Positions 3,803-42,711 of a stretch of DNA of 52,248 bases are shown in pieces. Location: the NCBI GenBank assembly GCA_024508935.1, contig JANINW010000019.1, positions 1 through 52,248 of the forward strand. Direction: 5' to 3'. A program made the translations under genes and the position numbers. Under the pieces are notes generated by a model. It saw only the letters and a list, made by a program, of their open reading frames with translations. It was not told the origin of the DNA and ran no database searches. The DNA comes from Flavipsychrobacter sp. Lineage in GTDB: Bacteria > Bacteroidota > Bacteroidia > Chitinophagales > Chitinophagaceae. Position 1 is the first letter of the stretch. The number at the start of each line of letters is the position of its first letter.

Positions 3803-5002
3803 ATGAAGACTGTTTATATAGTAGATGCTATCCGCACCCCTGTTGGCAAATATGGAGGAAGTTTAAGCACAGTACGACCCGACGATCTTTTAGCACATGT
3901 TATCAAAACCCTTATAAAGCGTAATCCTTCTATTGATGTAAATGAGATAGAAGATGTAATAGCCGGTGCTGCCAACCAGGCGGGCGAAGATAACCGCAAC
4001 GTGGCCCGTATGGCTGCTTTGCTGGCGGGCCTTCCGGTAGCAGTAGGCGGTAATACAGTGAACCGTTTGTGTGCATCGGGCCTGCAATCTATAATGGATG
4101 CCTCGCGTGCTATTATGTGCGGTGACGGTGAGATATACATTGCCGGCGGTGTAGAGAGTATGACGCGTGCGCCTTTTGTAATGGGCAAATCCGAGACTGC
4201 TTTCGGTCGTAGTGCAGAGATGTATGATACCACTATGGGCTGGCGTTTTGTAAATAAAAAATTCAATAAGGACAGCTACTATCCATATACTATGGGCGAG
4301 ACTGCAGAGAATGTGGCAGAACGTTATAAGGTAAGCCGCGAGGCACAGGATGCATTCGGCTTGCGCAGCCAGCAAAACTATGCCGCTGCTCATGCTGCCG
4401 GAAAATTCAAAGAGGAGATAGCGCCTATAACAATAGACCTGGGTAAGGGTAAAACAATGTTATTTGATACCGACGAGCATCCCCGCGAAACAACACTGGA
4501 AAAATTAGCTGCTTTGAAACCGGCTTTCAAAAAAGATGGTACGGTAACGGCGGGTAATTCAAGTGGTATCAATGATGGCGCCGCCGCTATGATACTGGCA
4601 TCGGAAGAGGCAGTGAAAAAATATAACCTGAAGCCGATAGCTAAAATAAAAAGTATGGCTATTGCCGGTGTAGACCCTGCCGTGATGGGTATAGGCCCAA
4701 TACCGGCTACACAAAAAGCCTTAAAGCGTGCCGGACTGGAAATAAAAGACCTGGACCTGGTAGAGCTGAACGAAGCCTTTGCTGCACAGGGCATACCTTG
4801 TATGCAGGAGCTTGGCCTTGACGAAAACAAGGTGAACGTGAATGGTGGTGCTATAGCTATAGGTCATCCTTTGGGCTGCAGTGGTACCCGTATCTCTACT
4901 ACATTGTTGTACGAACTGAAACGCCGTGGCAGTAAATATGGCCTCGCAACTATGTGCATAGGGGTTGGCCAGGGTGCAGCTATTATTTATGAAATGGTAT
5001 AA
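3803..5002 (+). CDS. Acetyl-CoA C-acyltransferase (thiolase)
   Basis: A 399-residue thiolase that cleaves or forms 3-ketoacyl-CoA in fatty-acid or aromatic-acid catabolism. It starts with [16 protein letters not shown]. The acyl-accepting cysteine is in [11 protein letters not shown] (about residue 90), the second motif is [17 protein letters not shown] with the catalytic histidine, and the final catalytic cysteine is in [10 protein letters not shown], fitting CxGxGxG. The layout resembles PcaF/FadA-type degradative thiolases, but chain-length preference cannot be read. It sits between the PLP enzyme and the ACMSD-like decarboxylase. The short 31-base gap to the latter suggests one transcript and perhaps amino-acid or aromatic catabolism. 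Confidence 0.93.
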
Positions 5003-36911: not shown

Positions 36912-36946
36912 GAAGAATAGATGTGCGGTGTACCGGTCTATTCTTC
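36912..36946. terminator. Hairpin between convergent genes, overlapping the end of the WYL gene
   Basis: GAAGAATAGA (36912-36921) pairs with TCTATTCTTC (36937-36946), with an inner CGGT/ACCG hairpin. The right arm includes the WYL stop codon at 36938. No long T-run, so termination strength is uncertain. Confidence 0.5.
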
Positions 36947-37954
36947 ATAGCTCTCCATGCTGTTCTTCAATTTTTTCAGAATGCGCTTTTTTAAATGGTC
37001 CGGCGTTAATACGCGTACCCCATCGCAAAAACCAAGAATCACGCGCTCCAGTTCGAAATTGATCTGTACACGTATATTGATGATAATACCATCAGGAAGT
37101 CTTTCCACTATGGTTTGCGTATGGTGTAGTGGTTTGGTTTCTACGTAAGGGGCATGGAGAGAAGTGAAGAATAATTTGATGTTTTGCGGGCGTTGCCCGG
37201 GGTTTACTGTTACACCTATCACGTGTTTATAATAATCACTGATGGTAGTCAGGGTATTTTCAACATAAACACTTTTTTCAGCAATTTCTACCTGCTCAAT
37301 ACGGTCCAGGGCAAAGGTCACGGTGATGTCTTTATTAGAATGTTTAACGCCTATTACAAACCAGCGGTTGTTAAACTCCTTCAGCCACCACGGATGGAAA
37401 TGCACTACATCGGCCGCTTTGGCCTTAAAAGAACGGTATGTGATAAATAGTGCCTTCTTTTGAATGATGCTGTTATATAACATATCCAGGTGCGACAAAC
37501 CTTTCAATAATTCGTTCTTTTCAAAATCTATTACAGATTCCGTACTATTAGCTGCAGCATATACATGGCCTTCCAGTTTCTGCACCACATCGTTCAGTGC
37601 GCTGAAATGGGAGAACCCCTTAAACTGCTTTAGCATTTCAACCGCTTCATTCATACGCCCCAGGTCCTGTTCGCTCAATGGTATATTCGTAATGCTGTAA
37701 TCAGCATTTTCGTAAGTGTAATATTTCTTATCTGTAATGATAATAGGAGCGTTGTAACCCAGTTTGTTACTGCGCATCATTTGTATATCTGCCTGTATAG
37801 TGCGGCGGCTTATTCCTTTATCTATGCCTTCATATTCATACAATGCTTCAGAAACTTTATCTATCAGCATTTCTAAAGTCCATTTCTTAAGCCTGTTTTT
37901 CAGACAATTATCAATGGTTTTGTACCTGATTAAGGCGTTCCGGTTTACAGGCAT
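36938..37954 (-). CDS. WYL-domain transcriptional regulator, divergent from rtcB
   Basis: A 338-residue regulator. An N-terminal winged helix-turn-helix (RYKTIDNCLKNRLKKWTLEM to ISRRTIQADIQMMRS) is followed by a linker and a WYL domain with QKKALFITYRSFKA and HFHPWWLKEFNNRWFVIGVK, where PWWLKEFNNRW replaces the usual PYxLxxxxxRWYL. A C-terminal extension (EIAEKSVYVENTLTTISDYY to KKRILKKLKNSMESYEE) follows. WYL domains are known or suspected nucleic-acid/ligand sensors; with rtcB on the other side of an 82-base region, it probably controls the RNA-repair genes. I chose ATG 37954 (MPVNRNALIRYKTID); a longer frame to 37999 adds a poly-Phe stretch overlapping the operator. Confidence 0.88.
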   Translation of the reverse strand: MPVNRNALIRYKTIDNCLKNRLKKWTLEMLIDKVSEALYEYEGIDKGISRRTIQADIQMMRSNKLGYNAPIIITDKKYYTYENADYSITNIPLSEQDLGRMNEAVEMLKQFKGFSHFSALNDVVQKLEGHVYAAANSTESVIDFEKNELLKGLSHLDMLYNSIIQKKALFITYRSFKAKAADVVHFHPWWLKEFNNRWFVIGVKHSNKDITVTFALDRIEQVEIAEKSVYVENTLTTISDYYKHVIGVTVNPGQRPQNIKLFFTSLHAPYVETKPLHHTQTIVERLPDGIIINIRVQINFELERVILGFCDGVRVLTPDHLKKRILKKLKNSMESYEE

Positions 37955-37990
37955 TCGAAATATTTTCAGAAAAAGTAGAAAAAAAAATTT

Positions 37991-38013
37991 ACTGCGCAAA
38001 AAGATTGCGCAGT
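37991..38013. promoter_or_regulatory. Operator-like perfect inverted repeat between WYL gene and rtcB
   Basis: ACTGCGCAA-N5-TTGCGCAGT, a perfect 9-bp dyad of 23 bases total. It is 36 bases before the WYL ATG and 23 before the first rtcB ATG, where a dimeric regulator could control both. An AATCTTTG stretch at 38021-38028 resembles a -7 box for rtcB. Confidence 0.65.
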
Positions 38014-38036: not shown

Positions 38037-39467
38037 ATGAAAACAAACACTATGAAACAGTTGATAATTAAAGGCAGGGATCTGATAGAAATGGGCTACC
38101 CTGAAAGCCCGGCAATCAGTGCAGCAATTACCGTAGTAAGCAATAATTATAATAGCGTGCAACGGGAAGAAGCATTGGTTGCTTTGGCAGCAGTGCTGGG
38201 AAACCCTGCGTCGTATGTGGCAGACAATGTGTGGTCTGGAGTAGCTATGGCATTGATTGAATATAATAAGGCTGAAACGATTGAGCTGAAAGAAAGCGGT
38301 GCATATACTATATACGGCGAAGATCATATAGAGGAAGGGGCAAGAAAGCAAATGGATATTGCGGTAAAACTACCCGTGTCTGTAGCCGGGGCACTGATGC
38401 CGGATGCCCACCAGGGCTACGGGCTGCCTATAGGTGGCGTGCTGGTTACAGACAATGCAGTTATTCCTTACGGTGTAGGAGTAGACATCGGTTGCAGGAT
38501 GTGCCTGAGTATATATGATATACCGGAAAGCCATTTTTTTGCTAACGAGGCTCAATATAAAAGGGAATTGATAGCCCATACCAAATTCGGTGCAGGTGCA
38601 GCTTTTCACGGCCAGCATAAATCAGACCATGAGGTACTGACCTATAAGGCATTTAAAGAGATAGGAGTTGTGAAAGGCCTTTTAGATAAAGCCTATGGCC
38701 AGTTGGGTACATCAGGTGGCGGTAACCATTTTGTAGAATGGGGTGTAATAGAAATACTGGAAGATGACAACGGGTATGCTATCCCCAGAGGGAAGTATCT
38801 GGCCTTGCTTTCGCATTCCGGTTCCAGGGGGCTGGGGGCTACTATTGCCAACCATTATACCAGGCTTGCAAAGCAAATCTGTAAACTCCCGAAGGAAGCC
38901 GCCAACCTTGCCTACATGTCGCTGGACAGTGCAGAAGGTATGGAATACTGGGAAGCTATGAACCTGGCCGGTGATTTTGCAAGCGCCTGTCATGAAGTGA
39001 TACATAATAAACTAACCAAGGCCATAGGGGGTAGCCTGCTGGCAAGGGTAGAAAACCATCACAATTTTGCGTGGAGAGAAAAGTATGAAGGCCGAAATGT
39101 GATCGTACACCGCAAGGGCGCTACTCCTGCCGGCGAAGGCGTGACGGGTATCATCCCTGGCTCAATGACTGCTCCGGGGTTTCTTGTGCGTGGTAAGGGT
39201 GAAGCTAATGCCATTAATTCAGCATCGCACGGGGCGGGGAGGCAAATGAGCCGAACAAAAGCGGAACAGTTATTTACAAAAGCTGAAGTAAAAAATATAT
39301 TGAAAGACCACGGCGTTACATTGATTGGAGGAAGTTTGGATGAAGCACCCGGTGCGTATAAAGACATACATACGGTGATGCAGGCACAGCGTGGACTGGT
39401 TGATGTATTGGCAAAATTCACACCGAAAATAGTTAGAATGGCCGATGATGGTAGCAGAGAAGATTAA
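38037..39467 (+). CDS. rtcB: RNA ligase RtcB
   Basis: A 476-residue GTP- and metal-dependent RNA ligase that joins 2',3'-cyclic or 3'-phosphate ends to 5'-OH ends, as produced by tRNA-cleaving nucleases. Motifs: PDAHQGYGLPIGGV, metal site GVGVDIGCRM (about residues 147-155), LGTSGGGNHFVEWG, SHSGSRGLGATIANHY, VENHHNFAWRE, VHRKGATPAGEG, and SASHGAGRQMSRTKA with the histidine that carries GMP in known RtcBs (about residue 398). All expected metal and nucleotide residues are present. An N-terminal 80-residue helical extension precedes the core. ATG 38052 (MKQLIIKGRDLIEMG) is an alternative start and more likely if the -7 box at 38021 is real. Followed by permuted tRNA-like RNAs and a slipin gene. 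Confidence 0.96.
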   Translation: MKTNTMKQLIIKGRDLIEMGYPESPAISAAITVVSNNYNSVQREEALVALAAVLGNPASYVADNVWSGVAMALIEYNKAETIELKESGAYTIYGEDHIEEGARKQMDIAVKLPVSVAGALMPDAHQGYGLPIGGVLVTDNAVIPYGVGVDIGCRMCLSIYDIPESHFFANEAQYKRELIAHTKFGAGAAFHGQHKSDHEVLTYKAFKEIGVVKGLLDKAYGQLGTSGGGNHFVEWGVIEILEDDNGYAIPRGKYLALLSHSGSRGLGATIANHYTRLAKQICKLPKEAANLAYMSLDSAEGMEYWEAMNLAGDFASACHEVIHNKLTKAIGGSLLARVENHHNFAWREKYEGRNVIVHRKGATPAGEGVTGIIPGSMTAPGFLVRGKGEANAINSASHGAGRQMSRTKAEQLFTKAEVKNILKDHGVTLIGGSLDEAPGAYKDIHTVMQAQRGLVDVLAKFTPKIVRMADDGSRED

Positions 39468-39484
39468 TAGATCATTATAAAACG

Positions 39485-39602
39485 CTTTCCCGAAAGGAAA
39501 GAATGATGATAGGTCCGGGCCCAAAAGGCGCAGGTCTCTGAATGGCCTCACAGTATTGCAGTATGTATACTCTGATATCCTGGCCGATGGCTTAATCATC
39601 AT
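39485..39602 (+). ncRNA. Structured RNA region preceding the tRNA-like modules
   Basis: Non-coding stretch after rtcB. A hairpin CTTTCC-CGAAA-GGAAAG (39485-39501) is followed by ATGATGAT (39503-39510), which can pair over 84 bases with ATCATCAT (39595-39602), an 8-bp stem ending exactly where tRNA-like module 1 begins. Inside are GCC-CAAAA-GGC and AGTAT/ATACT hairpins. GGTCCG occurs at 39512, reminiscent of the Ro60-binding sequence of Y RNAs, but six bases are weak evidence. Proposed as part of one RNA with the modules; the fold is by eye only. Confidence 0.5.
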
Positions 39603-39667
39603 GATGCGTGTCAGGGGTTCGAATCCCCTCCCTCTCAAAAAGGGTAGCTAAGCGGTTATAGCAGCAT
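39603..39667 (+). ncRNA. Permuted tRNA-like module 1
   Basis: tRNA parts occur in circularly permuted order. GATGC (39603-39607) and variable-like GTGTC are followed by a T arm with stem AGGGG/CCCCT and loop TTCGAAT (39613-39629). The acceptor 3' strand CCCTCTC (39630-39636) turns back directly through A's into the 5' strand AAAAGGG (39638-39644; CCCT/AGGG pairs, 5 of 7 overall). Then come T8-A9, D arm GCTA-AGCGGTTA-TAGC (39647-39662) with the conserved GG, A26, and GCAT (39664-39667), which pairs with ATGC at 39604 as an anticodon-like stem. So the RNA's open end is where the anticodon would be, and the acceptor stem is a closed hairpin. No CCA end is possible without processing. Confidence 0.75.
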
Positions 39668-39668
39668 A

Positions 39669-39745
39669 CCATGTGGGTTCAAATCCCACTTCTGCAAATG
39701 CAGAATAGCTTAAATGGTAAAGCAATGGACCACGGATCCATGGTA
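39669..39745 (+). ncRNA. Permuted tRNA-like module 2
   Basis: The clearer copy. CCAT (39669-39672) leads straight into a T arm with stem GTGGG/CCCAC and loop TTCAAAT (39673-39689). Acceptor 3' strand TTCTGCA (39690-39696) and 5' strand TGCAGAA (39699-39705) pair perfectly over 7 bp with only AA between. T8-A9 and a D arm GCTT-AAATGGTA-AAGC (39708-39723) with conserved GG follow, then A26. ATGG (39725-39728) can pair back with CCAT; TACCAT (39667-39672) can alternatively pair 6 bp with ATGGTA (39740-39745). A third choice is a local hairpin ATGGA-CCACGGA-TCCAT (39725-39741) like an anticodon arm, though position 33 is C. T-loop and D-loop bases needed for the tRNA elbow are present. Confidence 0.8.
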
Positions 39746-40001
39746 AGACGAAGACGGCAACTTCTACAACAAATGTCCAAAACCAAATGAATGCTGCAGC
39801 TATATCTGCAGCACAGAACTGCAACCGGCGGCTTGCTTTGAAAGCATGGCAGATACCGTTTTGACAGATAGTACCACTTGAAGTATATATGCGCAACTGG
39901 CACTACATTTCATTACTTAAGCCACTTCCGCAAACAGCGGGTAGATGTAGCTGTGGCATCATTTGTCAAACAATTTAATTCATCATTTAACAATCAAAAC
40001 T
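39746..40001 (+). other. Non-coding region between the tRNA-like modules and the slipin gene
   Basis: About 256 bases with no credible gene on either strand. It contains a perfect hairpin TGCTGCAG-CTATAT-CTGCAGCA (39792-39813), GAAG-ACGGCAA-CTTC just after module 2, a small TGCTT-TGA-AAGCA hairpin near 39834, and near the end a nested structure in which CTACAT (39903) can pair with ATGTAG (39945), with CCGC-AAACA-GCGG inside. No T-run terminator was found, so rtcB, the RNAs and the slipin gene may share one transcript, or the RNA may have its own 3' end here. Confidence 0.5.
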
Positions 40002-41099
40002 ATGAAACCGATAAAAGTAAGGGCGTATAGAAAAGCCCTGGTATTTAAAAACGGGAAGTATAAACGGATGCTTGGCGAAGGCTTGCATTGGCTGAATATT
40101 GGCGAGACATATTACGAGTATGATATGCAAACGCATTTTGTAGCTCCGGTAGACTTAAATATCCTTTTGCAGCATGAAGAGATAACTGCATCATTGATCG
40201 TACTGGAAGTAAAGGATAATGAGCTTGCTTTGATGTTCCGGAACGGCTTGTTTAAAGAAGTCTTATTGCCCGGCCGGTACGCTTTCTGGAAAGGAATAAT
40301 AGAATATAGCTTTATCGTGGCAGACCGGAGCAAAGTGGCAATAACAGAGCCGGTTAATGAGACTGTATTGGCAAAGCCTGAACTACAGCCATTTGTGCGG
40401 ACCTGTGCTGTAGAGCCAAACGAAAAGGGATTGCTGTATATAGATGGCAAACTGGAAAGCATGCTGGATCCGGGAGTCTATTATTTTTGGAAGAATCCGA
40501 TACCCGTATTGCTGCAAAGAATAGATATGCGGCAACAGCACCTGGATATGAATGGGCAGGAGATACTTACCAAAGACAAAGCTGCCTTACGGGTAAACTT
40601 CTACGCAAGATACCAGGTAACTGATATTAAGAAGGCACTGTGCGAGAATAAAGAATATGACAAGCAGTTGTATGCACTTGTGCAGCTGGCCCTAAGGGAA
40701 TATGTAGCTACCTATACGCTGGACGAGTTGCTGGAAAAACGGAATGATATAGCCGGCAGTATACTGGCCCAGCTGGCGGAAACATCTGAAGAGCTGGGTG
40801 TAAGGGTGACTGAAGCAGGTATCAGGGATATCATCCTGCCTGGCGATATGAAGGATATCATGAACCAGGTGTTGGTAGCTGAAAAACGGGCACAGGCGAA
40901 TATTATAACCAGGAGGGAAGAAACCGCAGGTACCAGGAGTATGCTGAATACTGCGAAGCTGATGGAGGAGAATGCCATGTTATATAAGCTGAAAGAAATG
41001 GAATACGTGGAAAAGATAGCGGAGAAGATCAGCAGCATCTCTATATCAGGAGGAGACCTGGCAGGCCAGTTAAAACAGATATTGATTGGCAGCAAATAA
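40002..41099 (+). CDS. Slipin-type SPFH/Band 7 protein with repeated N-terminal module
   Basis: A 365-residue protein ending in a canonical slipin/SPFH core (about residues 139-330): EPNEKGLLYIDGKLESMLDP, QRIDMRQQHLDMNGQEILTK, DKAALRVNFYARYQVTDIKK, RDIILPGDMKDIMNQVLVAE, then the coiled coil KRAQANIITRREETAGTRSM. There is no N-terminal membrane helix, unlike most stomatins. Before the core lie two further copies of the first SPFH beta module: residues 11-32 (KALVFKNGKYKRMLGEGLHW), 74-97 (ELALMFRNGLFKEVLLPGRY) and, in the core, 141-164. Probably an oligomeric scaffold. The ATG at 40002 is preferred over an in-frame start at 39963 inside the structured spacer. Followed by a strong terminator that ends the RtcB locus. 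Confidence 0.88.
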   Translation: MKPIKVRAYRKALVFKNGKYKRMLGEGLHWLNIGETYYEYDMQTHFVAPVDLNILLQHEEITASLIVLEVKDNELALMFRNGLFKEVLLPGRYAFWKGIIEYSFIVADRSKVAITEPVNETVLAKPELQPFVRTCAVEPNEKGLLYIDGKLESMLDPGVYYFWKNPIPVLLQRIDMRQQHLDMNGQEILTKDKAALRVNFYARYQVTDIKKALCENKEYDKQLYALVQLALREYVATYTLDELLEKRNDIAGSILAQLAETSEELGVRVTEAGIRDIILPGDMKDIMNQVLVAEKRAQANIITRREETAGTRSMLNTAKLMEENAMLYKLKEMEYVEKIAEKISSISISGGDLAGQLKQILIGSK

Positions 41100-41151: not shown

Positions 41152-42711
41152 TTATTTACTCTGCAGTCGTATTACCGGCACCAGCATTTCTTCCAGCGAT
41201 ATACCGCCGTGCTGGAATGTATTGCGGTAATAATTTACATAATGGTTGTAGTTGTTGGGATAGCAGAGGAAGATATCTCCTTTGGCAAAAATAAAGGTAG
41301 AACTTACATTAGGTCGTGGCAGTCCTGCTTCGCGCGGATCGCGGAAGGCCAGTACATCCTTGTCCTCGTACTGCAGGTTGCGGCCATGTTTGTAGCGCAG
41401 GTTGGTAGTTGTTTGCCTGTCGCCTACGCATTTGCTCGGGGTTTTTACCCTAACGGTACCATGGTCGGTAGTTATCAATACCTGTATATTTTTGTCAGCT
41501 ATTTTCTTCAGCGCACGATGCAGCGGTGAGTGCTCGAACCAGCTAACGGTAAGAGAGCGGTAAGATACTTCATCACCTGCCAGTTCCTTCAGTACTTCCA
41601 TTTCTGTACGTGCATGCGAGAGCATATCCACGAAATTATAAACGATAACCGTCAGGTCGTTATTCAGGTAGTTATGGATATTATCTTCCAGGTCCTTACC
41701 ATGTTCGTTATTGGTTATCTTCAGGTATTGCGTCTTTAGGTGATCCAGCTTCAGTTGTTTCAGCTGGTGGCGCAGGAAGGTTTCTTCATACAGGTTCTTG
41801 CCGCCTTCTTCATCATCATTCTTCCATTCCAATGGGAATTTTGCTTCTATTTCTACCGGCAGCATGCCTGCAAACAAAGCGTTACGCGCATATTGTGTGG
41901 CAGTAGGCAATATGCTGTAAAACATATCCTCTTCTACCGTGCGGAACGATTCATTCACAGTAGGCTGCAAAGATCTCCACTGGTCGAAGCGGAGATTGTC
42001 TATAACCACCAGGAAGGTGGGCGTACCCTGCTGCAGGTGCGGTGCTACTTTTCTTTTAAACAATTCATGTGATAGCAGCGGTGCATCGCCGTTCTTATTC
42101 TTTATCCAGCTTGCGTAGTTCTTCGATACAAATTTGTAGAACTCGTTATTGGCTTCGGTTTTCTGAGATTGCAACACTTCCATCATCTGCTCACTATCAC
42201 TGCGCGCCATTTCCAGTTCCCAGTATACCAGTTTTTTATAAAGCTCTTTCCATTCTTCATGGTTAGGATTATCATTCAGCGCCATGAAGAGGTTGCGGAA
42301 GTCCTGCTGGTAAGCCAGCGTGGTCTTTTCAGATACCAGGCGTTTGGTATCCATTATTTTCTTCAAAGACAGCAATACCTGGTTAGGATTTACCGGTTTT
42401 ATCAGGTAATCGGTTATCTGCCCGCCTATGGCCTCTTCCATAATGTTCTCTGCTTCGTTCTTGGTGATCATCACCACCGGCAGGTTGGGCTGGCTTTCTT
42501 TTATGCGTGCCAGTGTTTCCAGGCCGGTAAGTCCCGGCATGCTTTCATCCAGCAATACAACATCTACATTTTTATCTTTCAAAAATTCCAGGGCATCGTG
42601 GCCGTTGGAAAGTGCTGTAACATCATAACCTTTGTTCTTAAGGAATAGGATCTGGGATTTAAGTGAATCGATCTCATCGTCCACCCACAATATTTCGCCT
42701 TGTGTACTCAT
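41152..42711 (-). CDS. porX: Response regulator PorX with PglZ-type phosphatase domain
   Basis: A 519-residue protein. The receiver domain (about 1-125) has ILWVDDEIDSL, the phospho-acceptor Asp55 in VVLLDESMPGLTGLE, and TDYLIKPVNPNQVL. A helical middle region follows. From about residue 230 there is an alkaline-phosphatase-superfamily PglZ domain with LVVIDNLRFDQWRSLQPTV, YSILPTATQYARNALFAGML, ITTDHGTVRVKTPSKC and a zinc-site histidine in DVLAFRDPRE to SKLEEML-type C-terminus. PorX with the kinase PorY regulates the type IX secretion system in Bacteroidota; PorX hydrolyses cyclic oligonucleotides. No por or gld genes are adjacent here. Full length and intact. Confidence 0.92.
   Translation of the reverse strand: MSTQGEILWVDDEIDSLKSQILFLKNKGYDVTALSNGHDALEFLKDKNVDVVLLDESMPGLTGLETLARIKESQPNLPVVMITKNEAENIMEEAIGGQITDYLIKPVNPNQVLLSLKKIMDTKRLVSEKTTLAYQQDFRNLFMALNDNPNHEEWKELYKKLVYWELEMARSDSEQMMEVLQSQKTEANNEFYKFVSKNYASWIKNKNGDAPLLSHELFKRKVAPHLQQGTPTFLVVIDNLRFDQWRSLQPTVNESFRTVEEDMFYSILPTATQYARNALFAGMLPVEIEAKFPLEWKNDDEEGGKNLYEETFLRHQLKQLKLDHLKTQYLKITNNEHGKDLEDNIHNYLNNDLTVIVYNFVDMLSHARTEMEVLKELAGDEVSYRSLTVSWFEHSPLHRALKKIADKNIQVLITTDHGTVRVKTPSKCVGDRQTTTNLRYKHGRNLQYEDKDVLAFRDPREAGLPRPNVSSTFIFAKGDIFLCYPNNYNHYVNYYRNTFQHGGISLEEMLVPVIRLQSK

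Follow-up and report, generated by a model that had tools for sequence, protein, structure and literature searches.

The 535-nt spacer between the RNA ligase gene rtcB and the slipin gene that follows it in a Flavipsychrobacter genome raises the question of what kind of RNA, if any, is encoded there. The window, that is, the whole 52,248-nt stretch of DNA analysed here, is a piece of a draft genome of 3.76 Mb in total. It carries rtcB (38037–39467, + strand; Pfam RtcB, E = 1.1 × 10^−81), a WYL/WCX-domain regulator divergent from it (36938–37999, − strand; Pfam WYL and WCX) and a slipin (SPFH/Band 7) gene (40003–41099, + strand; Pfam Band_7, E = 2.5 × 10^−40), for which a TTG at 39963 is an alternative start. 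An original prediction made from the letters of this DNA had placed two tandem, circularly permuted tRNA-like RNAs after rtcB at 39603–39745, compared them with the tRNA-mimic domain of bacterial Y RNAs, and suggested that RtcB could circularise such an RNA, after which RNase P and RNase Z could free a normal tRNA.

Both tRNA-like blocks were present where they had been predicted, each running from T arm through closed acceptor hairpin to D arm on the + strand. Module 1 (39604–39667) consisted of a closing stem (39604–39607/39664–39667), a T arm (39613–39629), an acceptor hairpin (39630–39644) and a D arm (39647–39662). Its closing stem, for which four pairs were modelled, stood in the place of the anticodon stem, as it does in YrlA. 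Module 2 (39673–39741) consisted of a T arm (39673–39689), a closed acceptor hairpin (39690–39705), a D arm (39708–39723) and an anticodon arm, ATGGA-CCACGGA-TCCAT (39725–39741), with the 7-nt loop CCACGGA. Because this 5-bp, 7-nt arm follows the D arm, module 2 amounts to a whole tRNA fold that is opened in its variable loop and runs from T arm through acceptor and D arm to anticodon arm. Two pairings of the original prediction had to be redrawn. The ATGG that was to pair with CCAT of the linker belongs to the 5′ side of the anticodon stem, and by inspection the congener G013 does not retain all four pairs of the linker pairing; the module 2 acceptor, described as TTCTGCA/TGCAGAA joined by two bases, has 6 bp in the window, capped by a loop of 4 nt. 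The predicted extent was right for the two modules and too short for the element, since both blocks sit in a conserved RNA that spans 290 nt or more (approximately 39485–39777), and module 2 also gained the covarying anticodon arm.

The regions flanking the modules were also structured. The 5′ domain comprised three hairpins on the + strand: P1 (CTTTCC/GGAAAG; 39485–39501), which starts at the 18th base past the rtcB stop codon and was seen in the sequence itself and in two-sided changes among relatives; P2 (39528–39551), taken from an RNAalifold consensus and carrying one mismatch in the window; and P3 (39553–39578), with the family consensus CAGTGCAG...CTGTATGCTG, relative to which several pairs were broken in the window. 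The alignment behind this domain (A4) contained 32 sequences picked by hand, and two-sided changes were found in 14 of its 21 predicted pairs. On the 3′ side of the modules, an H-type pseudoknot (39750–39777, + strand) was built from a GAAG/CTTC hairpin (39750–39753/39761–39764) whose loop bases GGCA (39756–39759) pair with TGTC (39774–39777), with one G-U. The pattern was found in 64 of 77 aligned relatives against a shuffled mean of 12.25 (range 9–17, 20 rounds). A GAAG-containing stem was present in 47 of these 64 pseudoknots, the other 17 had a different stem and may in part be chance, and 13 of the 77 members had none by the definition used. Farther downstream, a tentative 3′ domain (39797–39953, + strand) would be closed by a long-range stem (39797–39807/39943–39953). 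A stem score of at least 13 was reached in 51 of 77 own-species pairings and 50 of 225 cross-species pairings, which is suggestive, moderately above the control and weaker than the other parts. A 3′ motif found in 20 of 77 members against a shuffled mean of 1.1 was designed after the sequences were seen and was not relied on.

Against the Rfam YrlA model (RF02553), module 1 scored 38.8 bits (E = 1.5 × 10^−6) and module 2 31.9 bits, both below the curated cut-off of 69, and the best YrlA score among 20 loci of relatives, 42.6 bits, also lay below it. A gathering-level Rfam scan of the window gave no match, ARAGORN reported 0 tRNA genes in it, and no ROOL- or GOLLD-like family was among the Rfam matches within the thresholds used. 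The Rfam tRNA model reached 27.9 bits in the window (cut-off 29); it scored above the cut-off on the G013 counterpart (31.8 bits, reading module 2 onwards) and spanned both modules above the cut-off in 3 of the 20 relatives' loci (38.2–42.7 bits). A covariance model built from eight relatives, with the window's genus left out (R2), matched the window at 39601–39741 with 108 bits (E = 10^−27) and the congeners G013 and G004 with 117.1 and 117.5 bits. As controls, the same model gave at most 30.0 bits at 31 loci with tRNA matches in the window's own genome and at most 74 bits (L134) at seven loci that hold either single Y RNAs or arrays of tRNA genes. Since single modules surface only as weak YrlA matches and occasional tRNA matches, a dedicated family model would permit annotation of this RNA.

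The covariation check that the original prediction had proposed was performed on 77 aligned relatives (A3). The results showed that 97.4% of cells were paired, that 34 of 37 pairs had changed on both sides, and that such two-sided changes occurred in each of the nine helices. Covariation was 0.766 in this alignment, which was fitted to a covariance model and so leans towards it, and was far lower in the shuffled (0.224) and slid (at most 0.142) controls. A separate 44-member alignment agreed with this result. Compensatory changes supported helices 1–4 of module 1, including the GCAT/ATGC stem predicted to close it (helix 1), and helices 5–9 of module 2, of which helix 9 is the anticodon arm; the Y RNA-like design was thus borne out in the acceptor, T, D and closing stems. 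The absence of covariation among homologues, named beforehand as a sign of decayed tRNA debris, was not observed. The weakest pair, in the D stem of module 2, was unpaired in 28 of 75 rows. Acceptor strands were paired within their own hairpins in 96.1 and 97.1% of cases and covaried there, whereas pairing them across modules, in the order of a tRNA array, gave 54.2% in the observed and 54.2% in the shuffled alignment, that is, no signal. Among the 77 members, module 2 acceptor hairpins had 0–8 uninterrupted base pairs and loops of 3–21 nt, and the standard 7-bp acceptor stem, absent in the window, occurred in only 22 of them.

To characterise the anticodon arm of module 2, we compared it with real tRNA arms. 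A 7-nt loop was present in 72 of the 77 aligned members, a count confined to these rows because 25 further loops from named loci were cut as the final 17 nt of the match, which imposes the 7-nt length. All five stem pairs were formed in 89 of 102 arms from the alignment and the named loci together. Among 81 distinct 7-nt arms, which include those of named loci and are not independent, U33 was kept in 59 and lost in 22, compared with 1280 of 1339 real tRNA arms that kept it, and C36 occurred in 1 of 81 compared with 306 of 1339. G36 was followed by G37 in 28 of 34 distinct arms, and positions 36–38 read GGA, TAA or AAA in 64 of 81 arms compared with 637 of 1339 tRNA arms, with 17 arms that do not fit. 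These three triplets are contexts read by TrmD, TsaD and MiaA. Five arms were identical to real tRNA arms in the loci examined, and the window loop CCACGGA differed from the CTACGGA loop of its own tRNA-Arg(ACG) at a single base, C33. The anticodon triplets differed between members. The loss of U33 and the diversity of triplets argue against decoding and point to no particular ligand.

To determine how widely the RNA occurs, we searched related genomes by several methods. DNA similarity in 59 genomes, including its own, gave one clear homologue, in the congener G013 (E = 2.9 × 10^−6), where both modules follow rtcB with 69% DNA identity; the remaining matches were short. The congener G004 has the order WYL, rtcB, RNA and slipin, as in the window, and the divergent arrangement of the WYL/WCX regulator and rtcB is common to the window, G013 and G004. 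A YrlA search of 195 family genomes gave paired adjacent matches in about 11 genomes, and 20 loci around such matches fell mainly into two kinds: some had single Y RNAs, in several cases beside TROVE genes, and others had a longer two-module RNA, the kind to which the window belongs. A covariance model of both modules (R1) was then run on family and phylum genomes. It scored at least 85 bits, a cut-off set by eye, in 61 of 394 family genomes, and at least 86 bits in 12 further genomes from other families of the class among 395 phylum genomes. At E 0.01 the model matched 324 of the 394 genomes of the family and 378 of the 395 of the phylum; matches up to about 65 bits, checked in part, were read as mostly adjacent tRNA genes or single Y RNAs. 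Rows of about 66–84 bits (e.g. G778, 84.4 bits) lie outside these counts, except for five family rows (75–81.5 bits) in A3; G158 (85.6 bits) was not a source of A3, and A1 did not include L127 or L138. Of at least 118 genome stretches selected by pattern, 80 were scored and 27 of these reached 83 bits. From their names (Niabella, Pedobacter, Flavobacterium, Chryseobacterium, Roseivirga, Tenacibaculum and others) we take them to be Bacteroidota, and two of them (L266 and L269) are probably the same records as G158 and G139. The best score among 80 viral stretches scored of 120 was 71.1 bits. In the open-access literature searched, no paper was found describing such an RNA, and the family appears not to have been catalogued yet.

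The gene neighbourhood was dominated by slipin: in 76 of the 77 aligned members a slipin gene lay downstream of the RNA and on its strand (43 with 1.5-kb flanks, three in longer loci and 30 among 31 loci retrieved in addition). A search that used the slipin of the window as its query detected 37 of 44, and the rest were recovered by more divergent queries. The exception, L265 (G326, 75.7 bits), is perhaps not a family member but a Ro60-type array, because it shares its contig with a TROVE gene, lacks the pseudoknot and has no slipin within 2566 nt downstream. Slipin also followed in 24 of 25 named loci, the remaining locus ending 16 nt past the RNA. In 31 long loci, which were chosen by us and overlap with A3, we found slipin in all 31, rtcB in 19, an RNaseH-like PF04308 gene in 17, an AAA ATPase in 11, WYL in 8, RlaP in 2 and TROVE in 0; at least three tRNA genes were present in 17 and none in 8. 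In 12 loci with mechanically called frames, module 1 started 134–244 nt past the stop codon of the preceding long frame and module 2 ended 221–327 nt before the first slipin start, and distances from RNA to slipin start estimated by extrapolation ranged from 256 to 508 nt. No TROVE (Ro60) match was found in the window's genome or G013, or in 58 of the 61 genomes with R1 scores of at least 85 bits; TROVE genes occurred in 30 of the 394 family genomes. As 3 of the 61 RNA-bearing genomes have one, Ro60 is neither required nor strictly excluded.

Several neighbouring arrangements were noted alongside these counts. In the window, a fusion of a response regulator receiver domain and a PglZ domain (41152–42711, − strand) adjoins slipin. 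Seven loci (L121, L122, L124, L128, L129, L217 and L220) had tRNA genes upstream of the RNaseH-like PF04308 gene, the RNA and slipin; some of them also had a CDC48-like AAA ATPase, and many of the array tRNAs were divergent by eye. One locus (L139 6293–6361, in G073, a genome without a TROVE match) had one YrlA-like module only, which lies upstream of both slipin and rtcB and is possibly a one-module variant of the RNA. Strings of single Y RNAs were seen in TROVE-bearing genomes of the same bacterial family (L131, L133 and L135).

A conserved structured RNA with tandem YrlA-like tRNA mimics, hairpins on their 5′ side and a pseudoknot on their 3′ side thus lies upstream of slipin genes in Bacteroidota, and it is best read as a new family of tRNA-mimic RNAs that belongs to slipin operons. 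As to its function, we lean towards a Ro60-independent, Y-RNA-like RNA whose two tRNA mimics dock tRNA-handling proteins and which is partnered with slipin. Such an RNA would be co-transcribed with RNA-repair genes and would serve stress-type RNA-repair operons as their Ro60-independent tRNA mimic. Its two L-shaped mimics could dock modification enzymes, nucleases, RtcB or decay factors, and the RNA, together with the membrane-associated slipin whose gene lies next to it, could be a bait or tether or could sense tRNA damage. We infer both the action in trans and its target, and the main rival is a leader acting in cis on slipin. A more far-reaching form of the docking model must be called doubtful. 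It would make this a new class of ornate RNA, found in slipin-based RNA-repair operons, with slipin where Y RNAs have Ro60. Module 2 would be a free-standing mimic of a whole tRNA in circularly permuted order; its anticodon loop would be selected for position-37 modification contexts while no longer serving decoding, and the modified RNA would be a bait or sensor for anticodon-cleaving nucleases.

The cis-acting leader, in which the tRNA mimics form an operator on the slipin mRNA through which a tRNA-binding protein or the state of cellular tRNAs controls slipin translation or termination, is possible though on the unlikely side. The thrS operator is a model for such control of an mRNA's own translation by a tRNA mimic. 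A cis role is possible because the RNA sits entirely between co-oriented genes, and it agrees with the near-constant position upstream of slipin, with the spacings measured in the 12 loci and with a possible 3′ stem that ends near slipin; however, the extrapolated distance to the slipin start varies between 256 and 508 nt, and that stem only moderately exceeds its cross-species control. Far less probable is a circularly permuted tRNA gene whose anticodon end is closed by RtcB and from which RNase P and RNase Z release a working tRNA, as the original prediction had suggested. Every tRNA arm is indeed present in module 2 in permuted order, anticodon arm included, rtcB adjoins, and the G36-G37, U36-A37 and A36-A37 contexts are like those of real tRNAs. 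A circle that yields a normal tRNA is nevertheless not supported, because the acceptor hairpins vary in length, and their loops vary as well; U33 is missing from 22 of 81 arms, the triplets differ between members, and rtcB accompanies only 19 of the 31 long loci.

An ordinary Ro60-binding YrlA RNA is likewise improbable, and slightly more so. The Rfam YrlA matches and the TROVE gene on the contig of L265 would fit it, but the scores stay under the YrlA cut-off, TROVE is unmatched in the window's own genome, in G013, in 58 of 61 strong-match genomes and in all 31 long loci, and the tandem modules, anticodon arm and pseudoknot are extras. The idea that the locus is debris of a tandem tRNA array, its permuted order only apparent, is already contradicted and has almost no probability left. 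It can draw on tRNA genes being common neighbours and on a few relatives where a match of the Rfam tRNA model, scoring above its cut-off, either bridges the two modules or runs on from module 2; it was rejected on the covariation of the acceptor strands within their hairpins, with tRNA-order pairing at the shuffled level, and on the conservation of the RNA in other families of the class.

Compared with known systems, the tRNA-mimic RNA of slipin operons shares with YrlA the permuted order of T arm, closed acceptor hairpin and D arm and the location near RNA-repair genes. It differs from YrlA in its tandem modules, the anticodon arm on the second, the separate 5′ domain, the 3′ pseudoknot and slipin rather than Ro60 as the usual neighbour; the T-acceptor-D domain is present, whereas the 69-bit gathering score and the TROVE companion are lacking. 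ROOL and GOLLD are large, ornate, structured noncoding RNAs near tRNA arrays; the present RNA resembles them as a large structured RNA near tRNA genes, while its core consists of tRNA-like modules. If our reading is true, bacterial tRNA mimicry would extend beyond Ro60 to a widespread structured RNA with ties to slipin, tRNA repair and spare tRNA arrays, the RNA would be a concrete, genetically testable partner for slipin operons, and module 2 would be a natural instance of a permuted yet complete tRNA fold. In the algal and archaeal circularly permuted tRNA genes described in passages of PMC3978253, the tRNA 3′ half precedes the 5′ half, an order also found in module 2; unlike them, this RNA has an acceptor hairpin of variable length in place of a 7-bp acceptor and an anticodon loop that is often without U33.

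A regulon of Anabaena offers a further likeness, as far as passages of two papers describe it. According to passages of PMC10272220, rtcB, a slipin and a silent tRNA array of Anabaena are all responsive to translational stress, and in a repressor mutant the two genes rise and the array is derepressed; the same genes, as an rtcB, slipin and trn array regulon, are mentioned in a passage of PMC9938897. This shared, stress-linked control of rtcB, slipin and a tRNA array (PMC10272220, PMC9938897) suggests when the RNA may be made. Anabaena differs in being a cyanobacterium with these genes at separate loci, judging by the gene numbers given, and the regulon passages of both papers do not mention such an RNA.

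Related elements were also observed outside the Bacteroidota genomes. A contig of a Campylobacteraceae-labelled MAG ends inside a two-module match (L329 1–100, − strand; 73.7 bits), which may reflect transfer or misbinning. Among viral contigs, a phage-like one carried two tandem T-acceptor-D modules with their own closing stems by eye (L439 8948–9095; R1 62.2 bits), and another carried a permuted tRNA-like module near a real tRNA (L389 5653–5796; R1 61.6 bits), with an anticodon-like arm whose loop reads CTGATAA by eye. A third viral contig (L434) contained a TROVE-like reading frame (70–879, 23% identity) and, at about 4250–4480 within a phage tRNA array, an element that by eye resembles a Y RNA.
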